DNA of 32,765 nt, taken from the IMG/VR virus record IMGVR_UViG_3300028384_000932, positions 1 to 32,765 of that record. One strand, 5' to 3'. The translations under genes and the position numbers were made by a program. The number at the start of each line of letters is the position of its first letter. Position 1 is the stretch's first letter. The DNA comes from a virus. Shown here piece after piece: positions 11,891 through 31,642 of this stretch. Below the pieces are notes generated by a model, which saw nothing but the letters and a program-made list of their open reading frames with translations, was not told where the DNA came from and did not search any database.

Positions 11891-14243
11891 TTTTAGTAGG
11901 CTCTCAGCCATTCTGTCTCTCGACATTACGAACTTCCTTCGTAATTCCGAGATTGCCAGTACAAAGCTTGGCCGCCTACAAGCACAGTTTCGTCAGGCAG
12001 GTCAAAGTTTAGTTCGTGGTCCTGGCTTGGCGTTTGGCCTAATCGGAGTAGGCGCCGTACAAGCAGCTGAGGGTTTTGACCGACTCTCGTTTCAACTTCA
12101 GGCTCTTGCCGGTGAAACCGCCACGGCGGCGCTAACCAAAAACGCCAAAGAGCTGGGTCTAAGTAGCGCGTTTACCGCCACTGAAATCCAAAAGCTTCAG
12201 CTCGAATTGGGTAAGCTGGGTTTGAGTGCTACCGACATTCAATCTGTTGCTCAATCGGTCACGGATATCTCCACGATTTTCGACACTGACTTGGCTCAGA
12301 CCGGTGCCGGTTTTGCGGCTACCATCAAGCAGTTCACATTAGACTTTGATAGTGCGGCACAGGTGTCTGACATTTTCGCAACGGCAGTGGGCAAGACCCA
12401 GCTCACCGTTCCGGAATTGCAGGAGGCTCTGAAGAACGTAGGCCCTGTCGCGGCACAGTTGGGATTCTCTCTTGAGGAGACGGTCGCGGTTTTGGGTACG
12501 TTTGCTGATGCCGGCCTGAAAGGTGGTATCGCAGGTACTAAGTTCAAGTCTGCCTTGAATAGCTTGGTCAAGAAGTTCCCTGATGCCAAGGCCAAGTTCT
12601 TGGATCTTGTCACCGGTCAAGCCAGCTACAATGAAATCTTGGATTCCACCAATTCTCGTGGTGGTATTGGAATACAGATTATTCAAGACAACATCACTGA
12701 GTATCAAAACTTGGTAGGCGCACTGAACCTCGCAGAAGGTGCGACTGAGCGCCTGACTGACGGCATGCAGGACAGGTTGTTCTTCAGTTTGGAGCGAGTC
12801 AAGAACTCATTTCAGGCTTTGGGTATTGCCATTGGTGAGGGGTTTGGTCCGTTCCTTACCCGGCTTGCAGATCGGCTTGGCTTCTTGGTCAAGTCTTTGA
12901 CCGATGGTGGCACGGCAACATCAAGGTGGATTGCCGAGCTCATGGTGATTACCGTTGAGTCTTCCCTGATTATTTTTGCAATCAGTCAGATTGGTGGTGC
13001 AATTACAGGACTCATTGCCAACCCGGCTTTTGCCGCCGCAGCTGCGGTAGCTTCTATTGCCGCGGCATTCTTCAAGGCTAAAATCGACGCGGACATTTTC
13101 GCGGCAAACATGGAGGAGGCCAACTCCAGTTTCGAGGACTTGGTTGGCTATGCAGATAGCTTGTCCAAGGGCAACGAAGTCATTTTGACTACGGTTCAGG
13201 ATTACGCCGCTCTCCAACGCGATGCCGAGGCGTCCATCCGGGCTCAAGAAACCGCAATTGCGGCCCTTATTGAAAAGGAAAAAAAGCTCAATCTAGAAAG
13301 GGAACAGGCAGGTGCTCGGTTCGACGAGACAAGTTCGATTGAAGTCGCAAGACTGGATAAGGAGATTGCAGACAACCAGGCCAAGCAGAGTGAGTTTACG
13401 CAAAGAATCTTTGCTCTCCAACCTCTAATCAAGGAGTCGAAGTTTCAAATCAGTAAGATTGAAGCCGAGCAGCTCAAAGCTCTGCGTGAACGGTACAAAA
13501 TTGAGCTAGACAACCTTGGTGCGGGCGATGAGGACTTGAAGTTGGCTAGGGAAAAGCACCGCGAGTACCAAAAGCAACTGAAGGCCCTTAACGAGGTCAA
13601 TAAGGCGCTTCAAAAGCAAACCATCAAGTCTGACGCGGGTGCGTTTGGTATTGATGGGCAGGAGCAGACTCAGAAAATCGTTGATCTGTACGGCGAGCTC
13701 ACGGTTTTGGGCGTGACCATAGATGAGGCCAACCAAAGCTTGGCAGAGCTTATGTCGAGCAAGGAGCTGTTGGTTCCCGAAGGCGGAGGATACGTCTTCA
13801 TTCCGCCAGAGGGGCTCGACGAGTTCGAGCGTTTGGGCAACCTCGCAAGTTTGGCTCAAGGATTCACGGATGGTTTTGGTCGGGCTATGAGTGCCGCTAT
13901 CACGGGCACTCAAAAGTTTGGTGAGGCATTGAAAAACAACTTGATTCAGGCTTTGCAAGCAGTGATTTCGAAGGTCATATCACTCATTGCCCTGTACGGA
14001 ATCTTGGCCATCGTAAGTGGCGGAACATCAGTTGGTCTTGGCGCATTTGTAAGCTCAGGATTTGGCTTGGGCTCTCAAAGCATGAGCGAAATCTTTAGTA
14101 CCGGCTTTGCGCAGGGCGTTGGGCCAGCTTTCCGTAGCGGGTCGGCCGGCGGCGGCACGGGCTCTGCCGGATTCCGTCTGCAAGGACAAGACTTGGTGCT
14201 TTCTGCCGAACGTTCCGGTAGGGCATTCTCACGAATTGGATAA
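11874..14243 (+). CDS. tape measure protein
   Basis: 789 aa. It sets tail length and is packed in the tube lumen; at about 1.5 Angstrom per residue this would give a tail of roughly 110-120 nm. Residues about 60-280 match the TP901-type tape measure core (FDRLSFQLQALAGETATAAL, then ELGLSSAFTATEIQKL and later a GTFADAGLKGG segment). Two hydrophobic stretches, about 348-400 (VITVESSLIIFAISQIGGAI and an Ala-rich run) and about 690-735, fit the membrane-inserting parts of such proteins. Residues about 440-610 are Lys/Glu/Gln-rich coiled coil. No lysozyme or peptidase domain is visible. The stop overlaps the next ATG (ATAATG). Confidence 0.92.
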   Translation: MALISDFSRLSAILSLDITNFLRNSEIASTKLGRLQAQFRQAGQSLVRGPGLAFGLIGVGAVQAAEGFDRLSFQLQALAGETATAALTKNAKELGLSSAFTATEIQKLQLELGKLGLSATDIQSVAQSVTDISTIFDTDLAQTGAGFAATIKQFTLDFDSAAQVSDIFATAVGKTQLTVPELQEALKNVGPVAAQLGFSLEETVAVLGTFADAGLKGGIAGTKFKSALNSLVKKFPDAKAKFLDLVTGQASYNEILDSTNSRGGIGIQIIQDNITEYQNLVGALNLAEGATERLTDGMQDRLFFSLERVKNSFQALGIAIGEGFGPFLTRLADRLGFLVKSLTDGGTATSRWIAELMVITVESSLIIFAISQIGGAITGLIANPAFAAAAAVASIAAAFFKAKIDADIFAANMEEANSSFEDLVGYADSLSKGNEVILTTVQDYAALQRDAEASIRAQETAIAALIEKEKKLNLEREQAGARFDETSSIEVARLDKEIADNQAKQSEFTQRIFALQPLIKESKFQISKIEAEQLKALRERYKIELDNLGAGDEDLKLAREKHREYQKQLKALNEVNKALQKQTIKSDAGAFGIDGQEQTQKIVDLYGELTVLGVTIDEANQSLAELMSSKELLVPEGGGYVFIPPEGLDEFERLGNLASLAQGFTDGFGRAMSAAITGTQKFGEALKNNLIQALQAVISKVISLIALYGILAIVSGGTSVGLGAFVSSGFGLGSQSMSEIFSTGFAQGVGPAFRSGSAGGGTGSAGFRLQGQDLVLSAERSGRAFSRIG

Positions 14244-17200
14244 TGGCAACAGTTAGATATACTTCGCACTTCAAGGGGGCTGCGGGAAACGAGTTCTTGG
14301 TCCGCATTTACGACTTGGAGTACACCCACTCACCGTTGGGATGGGGTTTTTCGGGCTCTGTACCACTGACGATTCAGGGTGACGGCCTTGAAATCAATTA
14401 CAAGGGCAAGACGGACACCCATTTGGACCCTATCATCCCGTCAACTTGCGACCTGAAGTTGATCATCACCAACGACGATCAAGAGAAGCTCATAACCAAC
14501 ATTGAGGCCGGGTCTGAGTTTCAGTTGGCCTTGGAGATTCTGCACAAGACGCAAGCCACTTCCCAGGGCGAGTGGGATCCGTATTGGAGGGGTGTTTTGG
14601 TCCCGGAAACGGTGTCTACGGACATCGGAATCCACCCATATGGGGTCGCCTTGACGTTCACCGACGGTCTATCTTTGCTCAAAGACGCTCCGTACCGGGT
14701 CACCGAGCACGAGCCCTTTGAGGGCGGTGCAAAGCTCCGTAAGCATATCGGTCGGTGTCTGTCGTACCTGCCGCACGCTGACTTATGGGATTACACCAAT
14801 GCCGGAGACCCATTCTTCGTCAGTTTAAGTGACCTGTACCACAAAAATCACATTGTTGGTAGTCTAAGTGGCAATCAGGTTTACACCGACGACCCTCTCT
14901 TCTACTCAGGAGCGGACTCCGCTGCTTTCTACGAGCCCTCTGCACGAAAGAACCCTTATGGGCGTCACTTCATTGAGGAAGGGGCTTATTACAGTTGCTA
15001 TGACGTCATCCGTGACATCATGGTTACTATGGGGTTGCGCATGAATCACGCTTACGGCCGATTCTTTGCCGTTTCTCCTACGATTATGGCCGCTACGGGC
15101 CAAGCTACCCAATATCAAATCCACGGCAGGAAATCTGATGCGAGAAGCCTCCTGAACACCAGCTTTCAGGACAGCGTATCGACTCTGCTGAGTACCACCG
15201 ATCACACCTACCGCATCGGCAAGGAGGAATTCAGTGACAGGTATCACATTGCGGTGGGTAGTCAGGAAAGTTGGCTTCCAGCCGTCAATTCAGCCACTTA
15301 CGTGCACCGTGACGCAGGTGTCAAGGGTGTATTCGCGAGAAAATCGGCTTATTACCTGGATCTTGCGTGCTACCCGCCACCTCCGCCCGCTCAAAGGAGG
15401 CCCAATAACGGATTTCTCGGCTTCTCATCAGGACTGGTCGATGCGGACATCCCCGCCAATGGCTTGGTAAATCCTGATGCGACTGTAGGCGAAAACACCG
15501 GACTTCGCATCAAGGGCGAGCTTAAAGTTCGACTTAGAAACCCTCGAAACGGCGCTTCCGGGGATGTAGGCACCGGATATGGTCAAGTGCGCGTTGCAGA
15601 ACAGTGGCTTGGGTGCAAAATCGTGTGTGATTTGACCATCAAGGTCGGGTCTTACTACTTGGTGCAGACCATCACTCAAACAGGAGCTGCTGACTTCACT
15701 GACGAGAACGATTTTGGTGAAATCACCCTCAACGCCACCGCGCCCGGCGTTGCTGGAGGAACTGACCGCCAGTACTACCCCCTTGAGGCGAGCACAGCAG
15801 AGTGGACCACCAATCCTGGCACTTTCGCCTTCGATATGGCGAATTTTGAGCTTACAACACCCCTGGTTCAGGGCATTGAATACGACGATGAAAACGGAGA
15901 GGTGCAAAGCTACCCGGTTGGATGTTGGACTCGTCGCCGAAATCACAACAACTTGCGGTACGATCAGGAGTCATATGACCACTGGACGTCCGATCAACCC
16001 GCTGAGTTGGACATCATTACTGCGGACCAAACAATTAGTTTTAGCTACCCCAACCCCTATCTAAGCATTGAGTTGGACTTGCAGACCCCGCCGTTGCCCG
16101 ACGGAGTCTCTGAGCAAACGGGGGTTACTTTCGATGTAAACCTTCGTGGTTTTACTGCTGAGGGTGACTCGCTTCCTGACGAGGACCGCGCTGATGTAGC
16201 TGTCGGTGACGATTGGTTGGGCAATGTTTTGGCGGGCTCGGCCTACATCAGAGACCTCAATGTTTTCATTGGTAGCGGAAGCGACGACATTGACACCTTC
16301 TATCGGGTGTCCGAGGAGAATCCTCGTGGAGGCGAGCACTTCCTTGCCGGACGCTCAATCTTGGGCGCTCGATACAGGTCAGCCAATGGCGCTGTCGGAT
16401 ATCTGACCCACAGCAACTCCGACACCCCGCCCACAGAGGGTATGGGTCTTGGGTACAAGATGATTACTGAGGACACTGACACCAACTTCAGGGGCAACTT
16501 TGAGGAGTTGGCCGCAAGTGCATATCAGTTTCGTAGCAAGAACCGACACCTGTACAACCTGCGCCTGATTCGCAAGGAAGGAAGTCCGAACTACCTCATC
16601 GCACCGCACACGCTGTTCCACTACAACTATCCGAACCCCGACGAGGACTTATTGGTGTTGGAGTCACGGCACAACCTGCACCGGGAAGAGATTGAAGTCA
16701 CCGCTATTGAGCTCACAACGGAGCCCAGGACCATCACCGAGGTGACCAACTCTGACGATCGCGGCACACCGGGCATTGCGGGCGGGGGCTTCCCTGCGGA
16801 TGTTTTAGGGGGCAAGTTGGCCACCACCAACACCGGTGGTGTAGCCCCTGCGGACATAACGAAGCTCAGTTTCCTCAACACCAACTCTGCCGGTGACGGG
16901 ATTGATACTATTGATGGGTTCACAGGTGGGAGTGGTAGCGTTTCGGCTGACGACCAGCTAAAGTTGGACGCCATTACCATTGATGCGAGCGGCAACATCA
17001 CGGACTTTACGGTCGCGGGCCAACCCCTGACTTCCGACGAGATTGAAGACGCCGGTTCAAGCCACAAGTTCGCCACTGCTGGACAACTGACTCAGATTGC
17101 CACCAATCAGAGTGACATTAGTACGAACGCGACCAATATCACGAGCGTATCAAATGGATTGTCCGACATTCAGTCCTTCTTCAAGGATGAGAACACGGGT

Positions 17201-19348
17201 GATGGTGTGGGCGTGTACGTTGACACCACAGACACGGGCAAGAGTCACGTCTCGGTGACAGAGACGGCGGGTAAGCTGCAGGTTGGTCAGCGCACGGTAG
17301 TCGATATGTCGGAGACAAGTCCTGGATCAATCGCCATGAAGGTTCAGGCCGGAGCAACGGGATCTGAGGCACAGGTGACCGCTGTTCAAATCAGCGGCAA
17401 CCCCACGGTCAATAACAAGGCCACGGTCAACATCACAAGCGGCGACTTCCGGGTCTCTTCGCCCACTCAGTTCAGTCAGAACGTTGCCTTCGCAGGAGGG
17501 AGCAATACTATTACGTTCACAGCGGGCACTTCTGGCATCGACTACAATGACCTTGACAACCTGCCTACCATTGGCACGGGCACGGCAAGTGAGGCGCTCT
17601 TTGTAATCGACAGCACCGGGGGCACAGACAACGTGACAAGCACAGCGAGTACGCTCACGCTCGACTCCACTCAATTCATAAGCACTGCAAGTAAGTTTAC
17701 GGTCAGCAACAGCATCGTCACCGTCAACATGAATATGCGAGCCGTCATCGCATTCTATGTAGGCTTTGACGACCCAAACGGTGCCGACCGCACAAAAGGC
17801 GAGGCTTTCCTTGAAAAGAGCACTAACAGCGGCACGACTTGGACCCTTGTGACCGGAAGTAACGCATTCGCCTACCTGCGTAACGGCAACAACAACGACA
17901 CTGACACAGCGACCAGCGGAAACTTGATTATGGACGTGAGCAGTGGCGACCAGTTTCGGGTTCGTGTCAAGACTCAAGGCTCTGCTTTGACCACTTCCAC
18001 AGTCGCTAACATGAGCGGCTTCAGCATTTTTGATTTGCTTGGTGGGGCTGCGGGCGCAGACGGTGCCGATGGCGCTCCCGGTGCAGATGGCGCAGACGGC
18101 GCTCCGGGTACACCGGGCGCTGATGGCTCCGACGGCACTGGATTTACTGGAGGTACTTACAACCCCTCTACTGGCATCGTAACATTCACTTCGGATGACG
18201 GCCTTGGCTTTAGCACAGGCGACCTGCGTGGGGCAGATGGTGCAGACGGCAGTGACGGAACGAACGGAACGAACGGAACGAATGGCGCTGACGGGCTGGG
18301 CTTCACAGGTGGCAGTTATAACGCAGGCACGGGCGTTGTTACGTTTACCTCCGACGATGGCCTTGGCTTTAGCACCGGAGACCTACGGGGAGCAGATGGT
18401 GCAGACGGAGCAGACGGAGCGGATGGCAGTGACGCGAACGCCTTAGCCGGAGCCGACCAAACCTTGACGGCTGACAGGACGATTGACGGCAGCGGAACGA
18501 ACGATCTGGTCATTCACGACGTAAGTGAGTTCAAGGTCACGGGCAGCAACAATGAAACCATTTTCTCCGTAGACCCCGGCTCACCATCCACCGTGTCTGT
18601 AGCAGGCAACTTTACGGTTGACTCTGCGCAAATCCAAGGTGGAAGCATACGGTTGGAAGAGGCGAGCCTGGTGGGTAGCAATTACATTGACCTGCGTGCC
18701 CCCGTCAGCGTCACATCCAACACGATTCTGACACTGCCGGACGGTGCTGGCAGCGATGCACAAGTGCTGACAACTGACGGCTCTCAAACGTTGCGCTGGA
18801 CAAGCCCTGCGTATGTGGTGGCAAACGTCAGCGGACGGTGGCAATGGTCCTCTGCGGATTCCGGAGAGCGCGTTTGGACGGGTAGTTCGGCATACGGTCC
18901 GTTTAATTGGTACTCACACAGCCATGAGCCAAGCAACACCACCCTGCGCAATTACAGCACGAGTCATATAGTCAACACTACGACTGCAACGGAGAGCAGC
19001 TACAAGCTCTTTGCATACGGCATCCGAATCCCGACAACTGACCGCAAGGTCAAGGTGGTCTACAGCTTCCGTCTTCAGAACGCTCCAAACCCAAGCACCT
19101 GGGGTATCAGCATTTGGGGCGGAAGTCCCGGCACTGTTCAGGAGACGGGCAGCGTAACCTTGCGGTTGCGAGCAGAGTCTCCGGACATTAATCGAACTAC
19201 AACGAGTACTGTCGCACACTACTTTGGCGAGTTTGAAACGCCTCAAAACTTCAATCACGATTTCGCCATGATTCTGATGGAGAACAGGAGCGGAACTCTG
19301 ACGACGAACACCTATATGTACGGACAATTTCAAGTACTCCTCGTATGA
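14243..19348 (+). CDS. giant tail-tip / fibre protein with collagen-like repeats
   Basis: 1701 aa, and the only large gene after the tape measure. The N-terminal about 650 residues begin FLVRIYDLEYTHSPL, then GLEINYKGKTD and YWRGVLVPETVS; this recalls tail proteins of Bacteroidota phages that serve as distal tail/hub. A beta-rich middle part follows (about 650-1000). Residues about 1000-1265 carry a coiled-coil-like stretch (QLTQIATNQSDISTNATNIT) and a jelly-roll-like domain. Residues about 1271-1397 are collagen-like Gly-Ala-Asp / Gly-Thr-Asn repeats with two copies of a 37-residue module. The C-terminal about 250 residues are a Ser/Thr/Trp-rich beta domain, likely the receptor-binding tip. 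It thus seems to merge distal tail, hub and fibre roles in one chain. Confidence 0.85.
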   Translation: MATVRYTSHFKGAAGNEFLVRIYDLEYTHSPLGWGFSGSVPLTIQGDGLEINYKGKTDTHLDPIIPSTCDLKLIITNDDQEKLITNIEAGSEFQLALEILHKTQATSQGEWDPYWRGVLVPETVSTDIGIHPYGVALTFTDGLSLLKDAPYRVTEHEPFEGGAKLRKHIGRCLSYLPHADLWDYTNAGDPFFVSLSDLYHKNHIVGSLSGNQVYTDDPLFYSGADSAAFYEPSARKNPYGRHFIEEGAYYSCYDVIRDIMVTMGLRMNHAYGRFFAVSPTIMAATGQATQYQIHGRKSDARSLLNTSFQDSVSTLLSTTDHTYRIGKEEFSDRYHIAVGSQESWLPAVNSATYVHRDAGVKGVFARKSAYYLDLACYPPPPPAQRRPNNGFLGFSSGLVDADIPANGLVNPDATVGENTGLRIKGELKVRLRNPRNGASGDVGTGYGQVRVAEQWLGCKIVCDLTIKVGSYYLVQTITQTGAADFTDENDFGEITLNATAPGVAGGTDRQYYPLEASTAEWTTNPGTFAFDMANFELTTPLVQGIEYDDENGEVQSYPVGCWTRRRNHNNLRYDQESYDHWTSDQPAELDIITADQTISFSYPNPYLSIELDLQTPPLPDGVSEQTGVTFDVNLRGFTAEGDSLPDEDRADVAVGDDWLGNVLAGSAYIRDLNVFIGSGSDDIDTFYRVSEENPRGGEHFLAGRSILGARYRSANGAVGYLTHSNSDTPPTEGMGLGYKMITEDTDTNFRGNFEELAASAYQFRSKNRHLYNLRLIRKEGSPNYLIAPHTLFHYNYPNPDEDLLVLESRHNLHREEIEVTAIELTTEPRTITEVTNSDDRGTPGIAGGGFPADVLGGKLATTNTGGVAPADITKLSFLNTNSAGDGIDTIDGFTGGSGSVSADDQLKLDAITIDASGNITDFTVAGQPLTSDEIEDAGSSHKFATAGQLTQIATNQSDISTNATNITSVSNGLSDIQSFFKDENTGDGVGVYVDTTDTGKSHVSVTETAGKLQVGQRTVVDMSETSPGSIAMKVQAGATGSEAQVTAVQISGNPTVNNKATVNITSGDFRVSSPTQFSQNVAFAGGSNTITFTAGTSGIDYNDLDNLPTIGTGTASEALFVIDSTGGTDNVTSTASTLTLDSTQFISTASKFTVSNSIVTVNMNMRAVIAFYVGFDDPNGADRTKGEAFLEKSTNSGTTWTLVTGSNAFAYLRNGNNNDTDTATSGNLIMDVSSGDQFRVRVKTQGSALTTSTVANMSGFSIFDLLGGAAGADGADGAPGADGADGAPGTPGADGSDGTGFTGGTYNPSTGIVTFTSDDGLGFSTGDLRGADGADGSDGTNGTNGTNGADGLGFTGGSYNAGTGVVTFTSDDGLGFSTGDLRGADGADGADGADGSDANALAGADQTLTADRTIDGSGTNDLVIHDVSEFKVTGSNNETIFSVDPGSPSTVSVAGNFTVDSAQIQGGSIRLEEASLVGSNYIDLRAPVSVTSNTILTLPDGAGSDAQVLTTDGSQTLRWTSPAYVVANVSGRWQWSSADSGERVWTGSSAYGPFNWYSHSHEPSNTTLRNYSTSHIVNTTTATESSYKLFAYGIRIPTTDRKVKVVYSFRLQNAPNPSTWGISIWGGSPGTVQETGSVTLRLRAESPDINRTTTSTVAHYFGEFETPQNFNHDFAMILMENRSGTLTTNTYMYGQFQVLLV
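18053..18435 (+). repeat. collagen-like G-x-y repeats with two 37-codon direct repeats
   Basis: Within the fibre gene, Gly-Ala-Asp / Gly-Ala-Pro / Gly-Thr-Asn triplets alternate with two 111-base modules at 18140-18250 and 18299-18409. Each module encodes GFTGG(T/S)YN...GVVTFTSDDGLGFSTGD, then LRGADGADG. The DNA copies differ mainly at third codon positions, so the duplication is old or kept by selection on protein. A short 9-base tandem (GGAACGAAC-like) lies between them near 18257-18283. Such repeats form trimeric stalks and are hot spots for length change by recombination. Confidence 0.8.
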
Positions 19349-26745: not shown

Positions 26746-26988
26746 TTAGAAGGTGTCGTAGACTTTGTCAGTGTCGAGGGTGTGAACACTGCCGCCGTAA
26801 TACTCGAACCGGTTCTTGAAGATGTGTTCCGGGGCACAGTTGTTCAGGTGGATGTAGGTCCGGATGTAGGCCATCTTGACCTTGTACAGAGCGTCCGACT
26901 CACTGATGTGAGAGAACGCGACCAACCCGTAGCCGAAGACTTCGGGCATGCGGGCCATATAGATAGGGGGTTTAGGCTTGTCGCTCAT
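26746..26988 (-). CDS. unknown protein downstream of cytosine methyltransferase
   Basis: 80 aa from ATG 26988 (MSDKPKPPIYMARMPEVFG), overlapping the methyltransferase stop by 17 bases. Mixed alpha/beta composition (YGLVAFSHISESDALYKVKM, then AYIRTYIHLNNCAPEHIFKN). A longer frame to 27045 lies inside the methyltransferase gene and is not preferred. No family recognised. Confidence 0.65.
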   Translation of the reverse strand: MSDKPKPPIYMARMPEVFGYGLVAFSHISESDALYKVKMAYIRTYIHLNNCAPEHIFKNRFEYYGGSVHTLDTDKVYDTF

Positions 26989-28003
26989 AGCGTTGGATAG
27001 TTTCGAAGATTTGATGTACGAGGGGCACAGCAACGGCATTGCCATACGCCTTCACTGACTCTCGTCGCCACTTTGGAAAGGTGATTCCGTCCAGTTCGGG
27101 GGGAAACCCATCATCTCGGCGACAAAGCGCGGGTTGAGTTGGGAAGTCTGCCCATCGTAGGTATGATTCGGCTCCAGGTGGTAGACATTGCGTAGCAAGT
27201 TCCTCCTTGCCGGGTTGTTGTCCAAGCTGCTCGGAGGGTACGCCCCCTTGAAGTCCGTGGCCGTGGGTGTCGGGAGCATCCCGTTCCGGGCCAAGTCCTT
27301 GAGGCGAGGACTGTAGCCCTTGCCCGTGGTCGGCTTGCCGTCCTTCAAGATCCTGGCGCCGCCCCCTGTCCCATCCCAAGCCACCGGGGTCGGAAGGAAG
27401 TCCCCGTACAGGACTTGACTCAACAGAGAAGACCACTTCGTGCCATTTCTGTAGCCGGCTTTTCGGGAACGTTCCCACATCGACTCCGGAGTCTCGGCAC
27501 GCTCGGTTGCGGTCGGAGTAAGCAATAAACCAGACCCGGTCCCTTTTGTGTGGGCAAGAGGCCGCACCAGCAGCAGGAAGTACGGCCGGGAAGACTTCGT
27601 AGCCTTCACTGTGAAACGCATCGAGCACCTCGTCGAATACAGCCCCGGCATTCCAACTAAGAAGCCCGCGAACGTTCTCTGCCACGACCCAAGTGGGGCG
27701 AACCTCTCGGATAACTCGGTGCATTTCCGGCCAGAGATGTCTATCGTCGGCCGTTCCTCGCCGTTCACCGACTGTTGAGTACGGTTGGCAAGGAAATCCG
27801 CCAGTGAGGACGTCGATACGTCCAGCCCAAGGCTTACCTGAGAACTTTTTGATGTCTTCATATGATTTGGATTCGGGGAAATGGTGTTTCAGCACTCGGC
27901 GGCAGAACTCGTCGCGCTCGACATGGAAGACGTTGTTCCATCCCATCCATTGCGCGGCAAGATCAAAGCCACCGATGCCGGAGAAGAGACTTGCGTGATT
28001 CAT
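26972..28003 (-). CDS. dcm: C5-cytosine DNA methyltransferase
   Basis: 343 aa. All landmarks of a 5-methylcytosine methyltransferase are present: motif I ASLFSGIGGFDLA (4-16, S-adenosylmethionine binding), motif IV GGFPCQPYS with catalytic Cys 72, motif VI AENV (108-111), motif VIII KRDRVWF (153-159), and motif IX/X near the C-terminus (ESVKAYGNAVAVPLV). The Gly/Arg/Gln-rich, poorly conserved stretch between VIII and IX is the target-recognition region, so the recognised sequence cannot be predicted. It probably protects phage DNA from host restriction; no partner restriction enzyme is visible. ATGA overlaps join it to the upstream small gene. See the nested ORF at 27052-27861. Confidence 0.94.
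   Translation of the reverse strand: MNHASLFSGIGGFDLAAQWMGWNNVFHVERDEFCRRVLKHHFPESKSYEDIKKFSGKPWAGRIDVLTGGFPCQPYSTVGERRGTADDRHLWPEMHRVIREVRPTWVVAENVRGLLSWNAGAVFDEVLDAFHSEGYEVFPAVLPAAGAASCPHKRDRVWFIAYSDRNRACRDSGVDVGTFPKSRLQKWHEVVFSVESSPVRGLPSDPGGLGWDRGRRQDLEGRQADHGQGLQSSPQGLGPERDAPDTHGHGLQGGVPSEQLGQQPGKEELATQCLPPGAESYLRWADFPTQPALCRRDDGFPPELDGITFPKWRRESVKAYGNAVAVPLVHQIFETIQRYERQA
27052..27861 (-). CDS. long ORF nested in another frame of the methyltransferase gene
   Basis: 269 aa without a stop, entirely inside dcm and one base offset from its frame, starting at ATG 27861. Unlike a usual shadow it has repeated, ordered motifs: three PTP(T/V)A boxes (LLLTPTATERAETP, FLPTPVAWDGTG, MLPTPTATDFKGAYPP), then NPRFVAEMMGFPPNWTESPF. 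I recall proteins with LPTPTA boxes and an MMGFPxxW end from other phages, associated with cytosine methyltransferases; this is unchecked memory. It spans methyltransferase motifs IV to VIII and the target-recognition region, so both frames would be constrained. It may be a true overprinted gene, a source of a frameshifted methyltransferase variant, or a by-product of conserved methyltransferase codons. Confidence 0.4.
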   Translation of the reverse strand: MKTSKSSQVSLGLDVSTSSLADFLANRTQQSVNGEERPTIDISGRKCTELSERFAPLGSWQRTFAGFLVGMPGLYSTRCSMRFTVKATKSSRPYFLLLVRPLAHTKGTGSGLLLTPTATERAETPESMWERSRKAGYRNGTKWSSLLSQVLYGDFLPTPVAWDGTGGGARILKDGKPTTGKGYSPRLKDLARNGMLPTPTATDFKGAYPPSSLDNNPARRNLLRNVYHLEPNHTYDGQTSQLNPRFVAEMMGFPPNWTESPFQSGDESQ

Positions 28004-30061: not shown

Positions 30062-30514
30062 TCACATGAGGTTTGCGGTGGCGAAGCTGAAGGAGGAGTC
30101 GCTCGTCACGATGATGTGGTCGAGCATCGGCAGGTCGAGGGCGTTGCCGGCCTTGACGAAGTTGTTCGTCAGGTTCTTGTCAGCCATAGACGGCTGCCTG
30201 TTACCGGACGGGTGGTTGTGCGACAGGATGAAGGCCGCGCAGTTGTCGAGCAGGAGTCGACTGAAGACAATCTTCGGGTCAATCACCGTGCCGGACGCCC
30301 CGCCTGTCGACACCCTGAAGATACTGCGGATGTTGTTGGCGCGGCTCAGGCCGATCACGAACGCTTGCTCCATGACCTCGATGGTGTCCCCGTAGCAATC
30401 GCGCAGGGTCTGCACGAGGTGGTCGGGGTTGGTGACTTTCTTGCCGTCAGGCTCGGTTCGGTTGTAGGTCAGGGCAAGTTCGCCCGCCTTCCAGATGGTG
30501 GTGGTGTTGTTCAT
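30062..30514 (-). CDS. RadC-type JAB/MPN domain protein
   Basis: 150 aa. The JAMM signature H-x-H-x7-S-x2-D is complete: His 99, His 101, Ser 109, Asp 112 in SHNHPSGNRQPSMADKN, with an upstream Glu (Glu 49 or nearby) in MEQAFVIGLSRAN and a downstream LDHIIVTSD. It is shorter than bacterial RadC (about 220 aa) and lacks the N-terminal helix-hairpin-helix domain, as is common in phage and plasmid copies. The domain is a metal-dependent fold related to deubiquitinases. In plasmids and phages the family is often tied to anti-restriction or DNA repair, but the reaction is not established. Confidence 0.9.
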   Translation of the reverse strand: MNNTTTIWKAGELALTYNRTEPDGKKVTNPDHLVQTLRDCYGDTIEVMEQAFVIGLSRANNIRSIFRVSTGGASGTVIDPKIVFSRLLLDNCAAFILSHNHPSGNRQPSMADKNLTNNFVKAGNALDLPMLDHIIVTSDSSFSFATANLM

Positions 30515-30515
30515 G

Positions 30516-30704
30516 TCAGTAGCTCAGTTTGGCTTTGTAAATCATGCGGTACTCTTCGGCATCGTTGAACTGCTCCATGGTGGTGTAGCTCGTTCCGAAG
30601 CACTCGTTGTGCTCGTTCAGGATCACCTGCAACTTGGGGGAGGCGAAGTGGATATCGCCACGAGAGGGGCTCTCGTCGGTTTCTATGAGGACAAAGATTT
30701 CCAT
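30516..30704 (-). CDS. small protein (62 aa), unknown
   Basis: 62 aa from ATG 30704, one base after the stop of the upstream Cys-rich gene. Product: MEIFVLIETDESPSRGDIHF, then FASPKLQVILNEHNECFG and a helical end (MEQFNDAEEYRMIYKAKL). The frame stays open upstream for 236 codons to 31412, but that part is a Ser/Thr/Pro/Arg-rich shadow of the Cys-rich gene, so ATG 30704 is preferred. One base separates its stop from the RadC-like start. No family recognised. Confidence 0.68.
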   Translation of the reverse strand: MEIFVLIETDESPSRGDIHFASPKLQVILNEHNECFGTSYTTMEQFNDAEEYRMIYKAKLSY

Positions 30705-30705
30705 G

Positions 30706-31446
30706 TCAGTGCTGATTGATTTTGATGTTCTTGCGACCCTTGCCTGTGACACCTGAGCACAGGCCGCACGCGCTGCAGGTGGTGAGGGAAAGCTCCTTGG
30801 ATGCGGGGCACTGCACCGCTGTGGAGGTGTCGTTAGGCTCGACACATACGAAGGATCGCCATCCGGTGATAGAGGCGGCGTCCTTGTCGCTATGCGCAGA
30901 GGCCATGAAGTAGTCCTTGAAGGGTTGGGCGAACTCCTTGCGGGCTTGGTGGGTGTAGCCCGTCCAATTGCCGGGGCACACCTCGACCATGTCGCGGACG
31001 AGGTCGATTGGCAGGAGCGATGGCTCGCCGTAAGTACCGAACCGCAGGTAGTCGGAGTTGGCGCACATTTCGAGGATGTTGGTCCTGTCCTCGCCACACA
31101 GGCCGACATACACGCCGCCGGACTTGATGATGGACTTGAGCATGGACACGAAGCCGGAGAACTGCATGTACTTGTGGGTGTAGCACTTGCCGGACCCGGA
31201 GTTGCCTGACAGGGGGCAGTCGAGGCAGTTGGCCTTGTCGAGCTCGAAGAACCGCTTGCGCTTGATTTTCTGCCCACAGGCGACTTGGTCATAGACATAG
31301 CGGTATTGGTCACCGCTGAAGGTGTAGGTCTGCACGACCTGGTCGGTGGGCTTGGCAATCTTGGCGTTGGTCGTCTTGCCACGCCGGATGACGTAGATGC
31401 GGTCGTTAGCATCGGCCCACACGATGCGGGAGGGAAGTCTACTCAT
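30706..31446 (-). CDS. cysteine-rich conserved phage protein (Gp88-like)
   Basis: 246 aa from ATG 31446, which overlaps the previous stop by eight bases; a start at 31479 lies inside that gene. The N-terminal half has NCLDCPLSGNSGSGKCYT, a Cys/Gly cluster; the middle has DYLRFGTYGEPSLLP, then NWTGYTHQARKEF and YFMASAH; the C-terminal part has GWRSFVCVE, a Cys-Pro-Ala-Ser box and CSACGLCSG, a second Cys cluster. This order (C-P-L-S...C-Y, R-x-G-x-Y-G-E/D-P, T-G-Y-T-H, M-A-S, C-P-A-S, C-x2-C-x2-C) recalls a widespread phage family, one member of which is mycobacteriophage Gp88, whose role is unknown. Metal or Fe-S binding is likely. Confidence 0.72.
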   Translation of the reverse strand: MSRLPSRIVWADANDRIYVIRRGKTTNAKIAKPTDQVVQTYTFSGDQYRYVYDQVACGQKIKRKRFFELDKANCLDCPLSGNSGSGKCYTHKYMQFSGFVSMLKSIIKSGGVYVGLCGEDRTNILEMCANSDYLRFGTYGEPSLLPIDLVRDMVEVCPGNWTGYTHQARKEFAQPFKDYFMASAHSDKDAASITGWRSFVCVEPNDTSTAVQCPASKELSLTTCSACGLCSGVTGKGRKNIKINQH

Positions 31447-31642
31447 GATGAGGGATTGGGATGTTGCGGATTCGGGCATACCGGACGAGGGGCGCCATGT
31501 GGCGGTGCATCAGGTCCAAGTCTCCCTTGTGGTCTGCTCTCAGGAAGAGCTTGCATAAGTGGTCGGCCCACTCACGATCACGGCGCAGTTCGTCGAGTTC
31601 CTTTTGAGGAACCATGCGCCAACCTCTTGTCGGGTTACTCAT
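31439..31642 (-). CDS. small Arg/Leu/His-rich protein, unknown
   Basis: 67 aa, helical (QKELDELRRDREWADHLCKL, then FLRADHKGDLDLMHRHMAPL) and rich in Arg, Leu and His, ending PIPHHE. It may be a small regulator or a partner protein; no family recognised. It overlaps both neighbours by eight bases. Confidence 0.64.
   Translation of the reverse strand: MSNPTRGWRMVPQKELDELRRDREWADHLCKLFLRADHKGDLDLMHRHMAPLVRYARIRNIPIPHHE

Follow-up and report, generated by a model that had tools for sequence, protein, structure and literature searches.

Does a phage DNA methyltransferase gene that contains a second long open reading frame (ORF) on the same strand encode one protein or two, and, if two, what might the hidden protein contribute? 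The stretch in which this question arises, referred to here as the window, spans the 32,765 bases of a virus record and has terminase, portal, head protease/major head and tape-measure genes of the usual tailed-phage type. The window also carries, at 30062-30514 (-), a gene whose product has a RadC-like JAB domain (Pfam PF04002, 6e-30) and belongs to a family frequent in mobile elements, and, at 14243-19348 (+), a 1701-aa ORF that follows the tape measure gene and has one marginal PHROG match only.

A preliminary description of this DNA had placed a 269-codon ORF, one base offset from dcm, at 27052-27861, and both the coordinates and the frame are correct (Table 1). We refer to the methyltransferase gene as alpha and to the nested ORF as beta. 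Beta begins with ATG, and its first base lies 142 nt after the first base of alpha, which places it in the +1 frame. The description had also listed three PTP(T/V)A boxes followed by MMGFPPNW. Boxes 2 and 3 agree with this pattern, the first reads TPTA and not PTPTA, and MMGFPPNW is present after the boxes as beta residues 250-257.

Table 1. Positions of the two overlapping genes and their sequence features in the window.
Feature	Position	Strand	Basis
Beta: nested +1 ORF, 269 aa, PTP-box recognition region and motif IX (putative)	27052..27861	(-)	phrog_1008; openness; selection in overlap
Beta N-terminal conserved region, residues 43-101, overprinted on alpha between motifs IV and VIII	27559..27735	(-)	conserved columns, alignment A4; SN/SS 0.32
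Beta box 1, LTPTA, residues 114-118	27508..27522	(-)	T115 and P116 nearly invariant in alignment A4
Beta box 2, LPTPVA, residues 156-161	27379..27396	(-)	read from beta translation
Beta box 3, LPTPTA, residues 196-201	27259..27276	(-)	L196-P199 nearly invariant in alignment A4
Beta motif IX-like LNPRFVAEMMGFPPNWT	27088..27138	(-)	pattern in 173/186 betas, 0/186 alphas; constant spacing
Alpha: C5-cytosine methyltransferase catalytic chain, 343 aa, motifs I-VIII and X	26972..28003	(-)	Pfam PF00145, phrog_363, Foldseek
Alpha motif I, LFSGIGGF, outside overlap	27965..27988	(-)	mostly invariant, alignment A5
Alpha motif IV with catalytic Cys, GGFPCQPYS, within overlap	27776..27802	(-)	mostly invariant, alignment A5
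Alpha motif VI, ENV	27671..27679	(-)	invariant, alignment A5
Alpha motif VIII region, HKRDRVWFIA	27521..27550	(-)	conserved, alignment A5
Alpha residues 183-296, predicted disordered linker at the expected place of the recognition domain	27116..27457	(-)	pLDDT <50 throughout; near-neutral alpha frame
Alpha motif X, ESVKAYGNAV, mostly beyond the end of beta	27032..27061	(-)	GN[AGS] pattern in 186/186 alphas

Openness of the nested frame

Similarity to either alpha or beta was used to pick 236 homologous loci from IMG/VR and phage genomes. An open +1 stretch of 200 codons or more is present in 98% of these loci and a +2 stretch of that length in 0%, and the beta match lies in the +1 frame at every locus where one was found. 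Homologues carrying stops in the nested frame, which had been named as a refutation of the nested gene, were not encountered. Among scored beta-like ORFs, 332 of 333 overlap an alpha in the +1 frame.

Codon shuffles that preserve the alpha protein and the alpha codon usage reach at least 269 open +1 codons in 225 of 20,000 cases for the window gene alone (probability 0.011). For the window gene by itself, chance is only moderately unlikely. Across 186 non-redundant relatives, the median open +1 length is 271.5 codons versus 101 in shuffles, and the observed length is reached by 0 of 200 shuffles in 84% of the genes. Openness alone is weak evidence, because ordinary single-chain enzymes also have a rather open +1 frame: in 73 genes for single-chain phage C5-methyltransferases, it is open for a median of 102 codons, and for at least 200 codons in 15%. 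The coding question is decided by the comparison across relatives and not by the window gene alone.

A second pair of long same-strand ORFs in the window, at 30516-31412 (-) and 30706-31479 (-), overlaps by 707 nt in different frames. This pair was dismissed as a dual-coding candidate because homologues exist for the 257-aa frame only. The 298-aa ORF, which is Ser/Pro/Thr-rich and has no homologues, looks like a chance ORF and offers a useful contrast to beta.

Selection on the two frames

Alpha codons 1-46 and 319-340 lie outside beta and served as control stretches. The ratio of third- to first-position variation in alpha is 2.79 before the overlap and 2.97 after it; within the overlap it is 1.83 (motifs IV-VIII), 0.71 (variable region) and 0.65 (end). 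A comparison of synonymous variation in both frames had been recommended in the preliminary description, and it reveals that alpha third positions are suppressed, not free, at the PTP boxes.

Isolated substitutions were also classed by their effect in both frames, using 58 disjoint gene pairs and bootstrap intervals. The ratio of beta-changing, alpha-silent substitutions to doubly silent ones (SN/SS) is 1.74 (1.10-3.36) outside the overlap, 0.32 (0.25-0.44) in the first overlap segment (alpha codons 50-165), 0.13 (0.07-0.38) in the variable segment and 0.09 (0.06-0.12) in the end segment, the intervals for the controls and the variable segment being wide because their doubly silent counts are small (10 and 8). 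For alpha, NS/SS from the same pairs is 0.11 outside the overlap, 0.09 in the first segment and 0.16 at the end; in the variable segment (alpha codons 166-285) it is 1.27 (0.71-3.81). A set of 122 non-independent pairs gives the same picture. At the two ends of the overlap both frames are constrained, and in the middle beta is constrained and alpha looks near neutral. Judged by the criterion for dual coding, that both frames be conserved and that selection on the nested frame be confined to the overlap, both features are found at this locus. That beta is a real coding sequence under purifying selection, within the overlap only, is strongly supported, and the earlier suggestion of a real overprinted gene is thereby upheld by openness, shuffles and overlap-limited selection.

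Distribution of motifs between the two chains

Pfam PF00145 matches alpha at 1.6e-45 over residues 1-167, phrog_363 (PHROGs) matches it at 2.5e-62, and M.HaeIII is the top Foldseek match of the alpha model (2e-15). An alignment of alpha with M.HaeIII and M.HhaI covers residues 1-164, with a second, weak stretch at 291-337, where motif X lies. AlphaFold predicts folded structure at residues 1-165 and about 310-343, and disorder at 183-296. By pattern, motif I is present in 182 of the 186 genes, motif IV (PCQ) in 184, motif VI (ENV) in 185 and motif X in all. Canonical motif IX was found in none of the 186 alphas with a strict pattern that recovers just 20 of 77 single-chain enzymes. Motif IX and a recognition domain in one chain, taken as a criterion for a C5-methyltransferase, are thus not found in alpha, given this pattern result and the predicted disorder of residues 183-296.

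A search of the nested protein against phage proteins, also recommended earlier, returned phrog_1008, labelled 'DNA methyltransferase' (PHROGs v4), at 3.4e-21 over beta residues 14-262 of 269. No Pfam or NCBIfam family and no PDB sequence matched beta, and PADLOC gave no match. The beta structure model is weak (pLDDT 64, pTM 0.34); Foldseek found no PDB structure with this model, which is too uncertain to rely on, and returned only weak matches among viral models, one of them a phrog-like protein of phage KM23-C739.

The sequence L-N-P-x-F-V-x-x-M-M-G-F-P-x-x-W ends 173 of the 186 betas. Its GFP lies exactly 65 nt before the GNA of alpha motif X in at least 90% of loci, and the equivalent interval between motifs IX and X in single-chain enzymes is mostly 57-69 nt. 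Because hhalign detected no similarity between the whole beta profile and single-chain methyltransferases, the motif IX assignment rests on the 17-residue pattern, on this spacing and on Ramsey-type fusions, described below. The DNA order of the pieces is that of an ordinary methyltransferase gene, except that the frame changes for the recognition region and motif IX. Most likely, beta is the DNA-recognition half of a split C5-methyltransferase and would supply target recognition and motif IX, a reading that is favored because a single-chain relative carries the pieces of the nested protein within its own chain.

Relatives and gene layouts

The most informative relative is gp69 of Mycobacterium phage Ramsey, a single 447-residue chain in which motifs I-VIII are followed by four LPTP boxes (LLPTPVARD, LLPTPSAAS, LLPTPKSSD and YLPTPSASD, in this order), PRLAAAFPEWMMGWPAGWVT and motif X. 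The profile matches of this chain are 1.1e-11 for beta, 2.3e-72 for phrog_1008 and 2.9e-79 for phrog_363. The first 100 residues of beta, which are conserved and lie over motifs IV-VIII, have no counterpart in Ramsey gp69; our guess is that they may serve assembly.

In Arthrobacter phage Abidatro the halves are separate adjacent genes (gp40/gp41), with PTP boxes, IX and X in gp41. Partial overlaps occur in Alma gp83/gp82 (50 nt) and Firecracker gp6/gp5 (209 nt). In Rhodococcus phage ReT1v-2 and Streptomyces phage Darolandstone, the alpha frame carries both IX and X, and +1 encodes a PTP-box protein. Five layouts are seen: a single chain, two genes side by side, genes with a partial overlap, nesting with IX in alpha, and nesting with IX in beta. 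Besides the window beta, phrog_1008 matches Diva gp50, K1ind3 ORF29, Abidatro gp41 and, in its C-terminal part, Ramsey gp69.

Most of the bacterial relatives come from genomes of Bacteroidota. Paenibacillus bovis (L245, 2540-2941) has a second, shorter beta-like ORF of 133 aa directly after alpha, with no alpha frame across it, which is perhaps a duplicated or alternative recognition subunit. In Bacteroides plasmid/phage loci (L246, 1416-2486; L005, 2-790; L004), the alpha frame is interrupted by a stop in its variable region or is truncated ahead of motif X, and beta is intact. Gene decay, errors of assembly or another cause may lie behind these loci, which count against our preferred explanation because a strict two-subunit enzyme does not predict them. 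As a separate observation, an intein seems to interrupt the alpha ORF of L004 (MT835926.1, 1908-3401) at the catalytic PCQ (...NGIVVHN, then CQPFS).

A proposed two-chain methyltransferase

We consider it very probable that alpha and beta are the two chains of a split C5-cytosine methyltransferase encoded by the same stretch of phage DNA. For this enzyme we infer translation of beta, assembly, reading of DNA by the PTP region, methylation and protection. The computed support consists of the coding character of beta and the purifying selection on it, an alpha without motif IX, a near-neutral alpha middle, and a single-chain relative with the same pieces in order. Alpha would provide SAM binding and the catalytic cysteine (motifs I-VIII) as well as the closing motif X, and would have only a disordered linker where the recognition domain and motif IX normally sit. 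Beta, started inside alpha in the +1 frame, would bring the recognition region with its PTP boxes and motif IX, and so complete the DNA-binding side of the cleft. The two chains would then be expected to form one active, sequence-specific enzyme, whose methylation of specific cytosines in the phage DNA would probably protect it from host restriction. Because of the overlap, recombination would not separate the halves, and both could be made from one message.

Alternative explanations

The alpha amino acids and codon usage might by themselves hold the +1 frame open and protein-like, with no product made. The rather open +1 frame of single-chain enzymes, the shuffle median of 101 codons and the window-gene probability given above are all compatible with such a shadow, as is the weak score of some single-chain enzymes with the beta profile. 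This score is at most 17 bits, however, versus 84-250 bits for most relatives, and the spurious but conserved shadow that the preliminary description had offered as its second option is rejected on these grounds. Moreover, selection on the beta frame is confined to the overlap; alpha cannot cause the constraint on that frame in the variable segment because alpha is near neutral there; and beta-like sequence also exists without an alpha frame, as in Paenibacillus bovis. We therefore regard a shadow as extremely improbable.

Beta could instead be a separate regulator or modifier, such as a repressor, chaperone or specificity modulator, acting on an alpha that is a complete enzyme. Its own start and its conserved N-terminal part, absent from Ramsey gp69, would suit such a role, but motif IX is missing from alpha in all 186 genes, the AlphaFold model of alpha lacks any folded recognition domain, and single-chain relatives hold the beta pieces inside the enzyme. 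This reading is improbable, and the earlier idea that the nested protein perhaps regulates the methyltransferase finds no support, given that a single-chain relative contains its pieces. Programmed frameshifting from alpha into the +1 frame would join motifs I-VIII to the PTP region and IX in one product without independent initiation. It would accord with the rarity of Shine-Dalgarno-like sites before beta starts (8 of 181), and the Ramsey-type fusions establish that such a chain exists. That rarity also weighs against our preferred explanation; the sites are uncommon before alpha starts too (30 of 181), and initiation in Bacteroidota depends little on them. Against frameshifting, the +1 frame is open and selected far upstream of a useful shift site (SN/SS 0.32 at alpha codons 50-165), the first usable beta start is ATG in 157 of 186 genes and lies most often 142 nt into alpha, and the fusion product would be without motif X. 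We judge it very improbable, and retain the split enzyme, its chains probably started independently, as the preferred explanation.

Implications

Whether prokaryotes and their phages have long overlapping genes on the same strand is disputed, and open frames are the sole basis of most such claims. In the 810-base overlap described here, both frames are under selection, the flank on each side acts as a clean internal control, and a single-chain relative hints at the identity of the hidden protein. The overlap gives phrog_1008 a function hypothesis. For many phage methyltransferases that are annotated as a single gene, it also implies a missing recognition subunit; in Xanthomonas phage PhiXhv-7 (L252, PV764599.1, ORFs 415-1398 and 587-1393) the opposite is found, the nested ORF being annotated and the methyltransferase ORF unannotated. 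The nested arrangement is kept in hundreds of phages and is mostly absent from annotations. An alpha cloned alone with recoded codons would probably be an inactive enzyme.

More tentatively, and with somewhat less than even confidence, we propose that phages have, on more than one occasion, moved the recognition half out of the alpha frame into the overlapping +1 frame, or in the reverse direction. The linker would thereby have become near-meaningless, specificity could evolve almost free of the catalytic protein, and the five layouts would be stages of this process. The PTP-box region might then be a type of recognition domain that is structurally undescribed.

Comparison with known systems

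The phrog_1008 profile matches most of beta, and its label is silent on overprinted subunits among its members. Diva gp50 and Shelly gp56 of Paenibacillus phages have the same nesting and are annotated 'g49/g55 internal gene', and in Escherichia phage K1ind3 ORF29 lies inside ORF30 in the same manner with both frames annotated; a recognition-subunit role is unstated in these records. The nested arrangement has thus already been seen by annotators, and our literature search found no article on the phage overlap or stating its nature. The hidden HNH frame of mycobacteriophage methylases was rejected as an instance of the same thing because it is a homing insertion (PMC11855218).

M.AquI (CYCGRG) is a split C5-methyltransferase with catalytic and recognition halves on two polypeptides, the small chain carrying motifs IX and X (PMC3404938). 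The window pair likewise places a catalytic and a putative recognition half on two polypeptides, but its motif X remains with alpha. Closer to M.AquI are Firecracker gp6/gp5 and Abidatro gp40/gp41, which have IX and X in gp5 and gp41.

In M.EcoHK31I the smaller chain is also encoded inside the gene of the larger one, in a different frame, and enzymes of this type need both polypeptides for methylation in vitro. The work of Lee, Kam and Shaw 1995 on this two-polypeptide C5-methyltransferase (YGGCCR), as outlined in PMC3404938, places motifs I-VIII and X in the larger chain and IX in the smaller, and the predicted recognition domain is placed in the larger. The window pair appears to split its motifs alike, I-VIII and X versus IX, with 65 nt from beta GFP to alpha GNA. 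Compared with the literature description, it differs in that the variable region of alpha is near neutral and predicted to be disordered, and in that the recognition-like region lies in the nested chain (NS/SS 1.27 for alpha versus SN/SS 0.13 for beta). M.EcoHK31I is the closest precedent, and the window pair would represent a variant of its layout.
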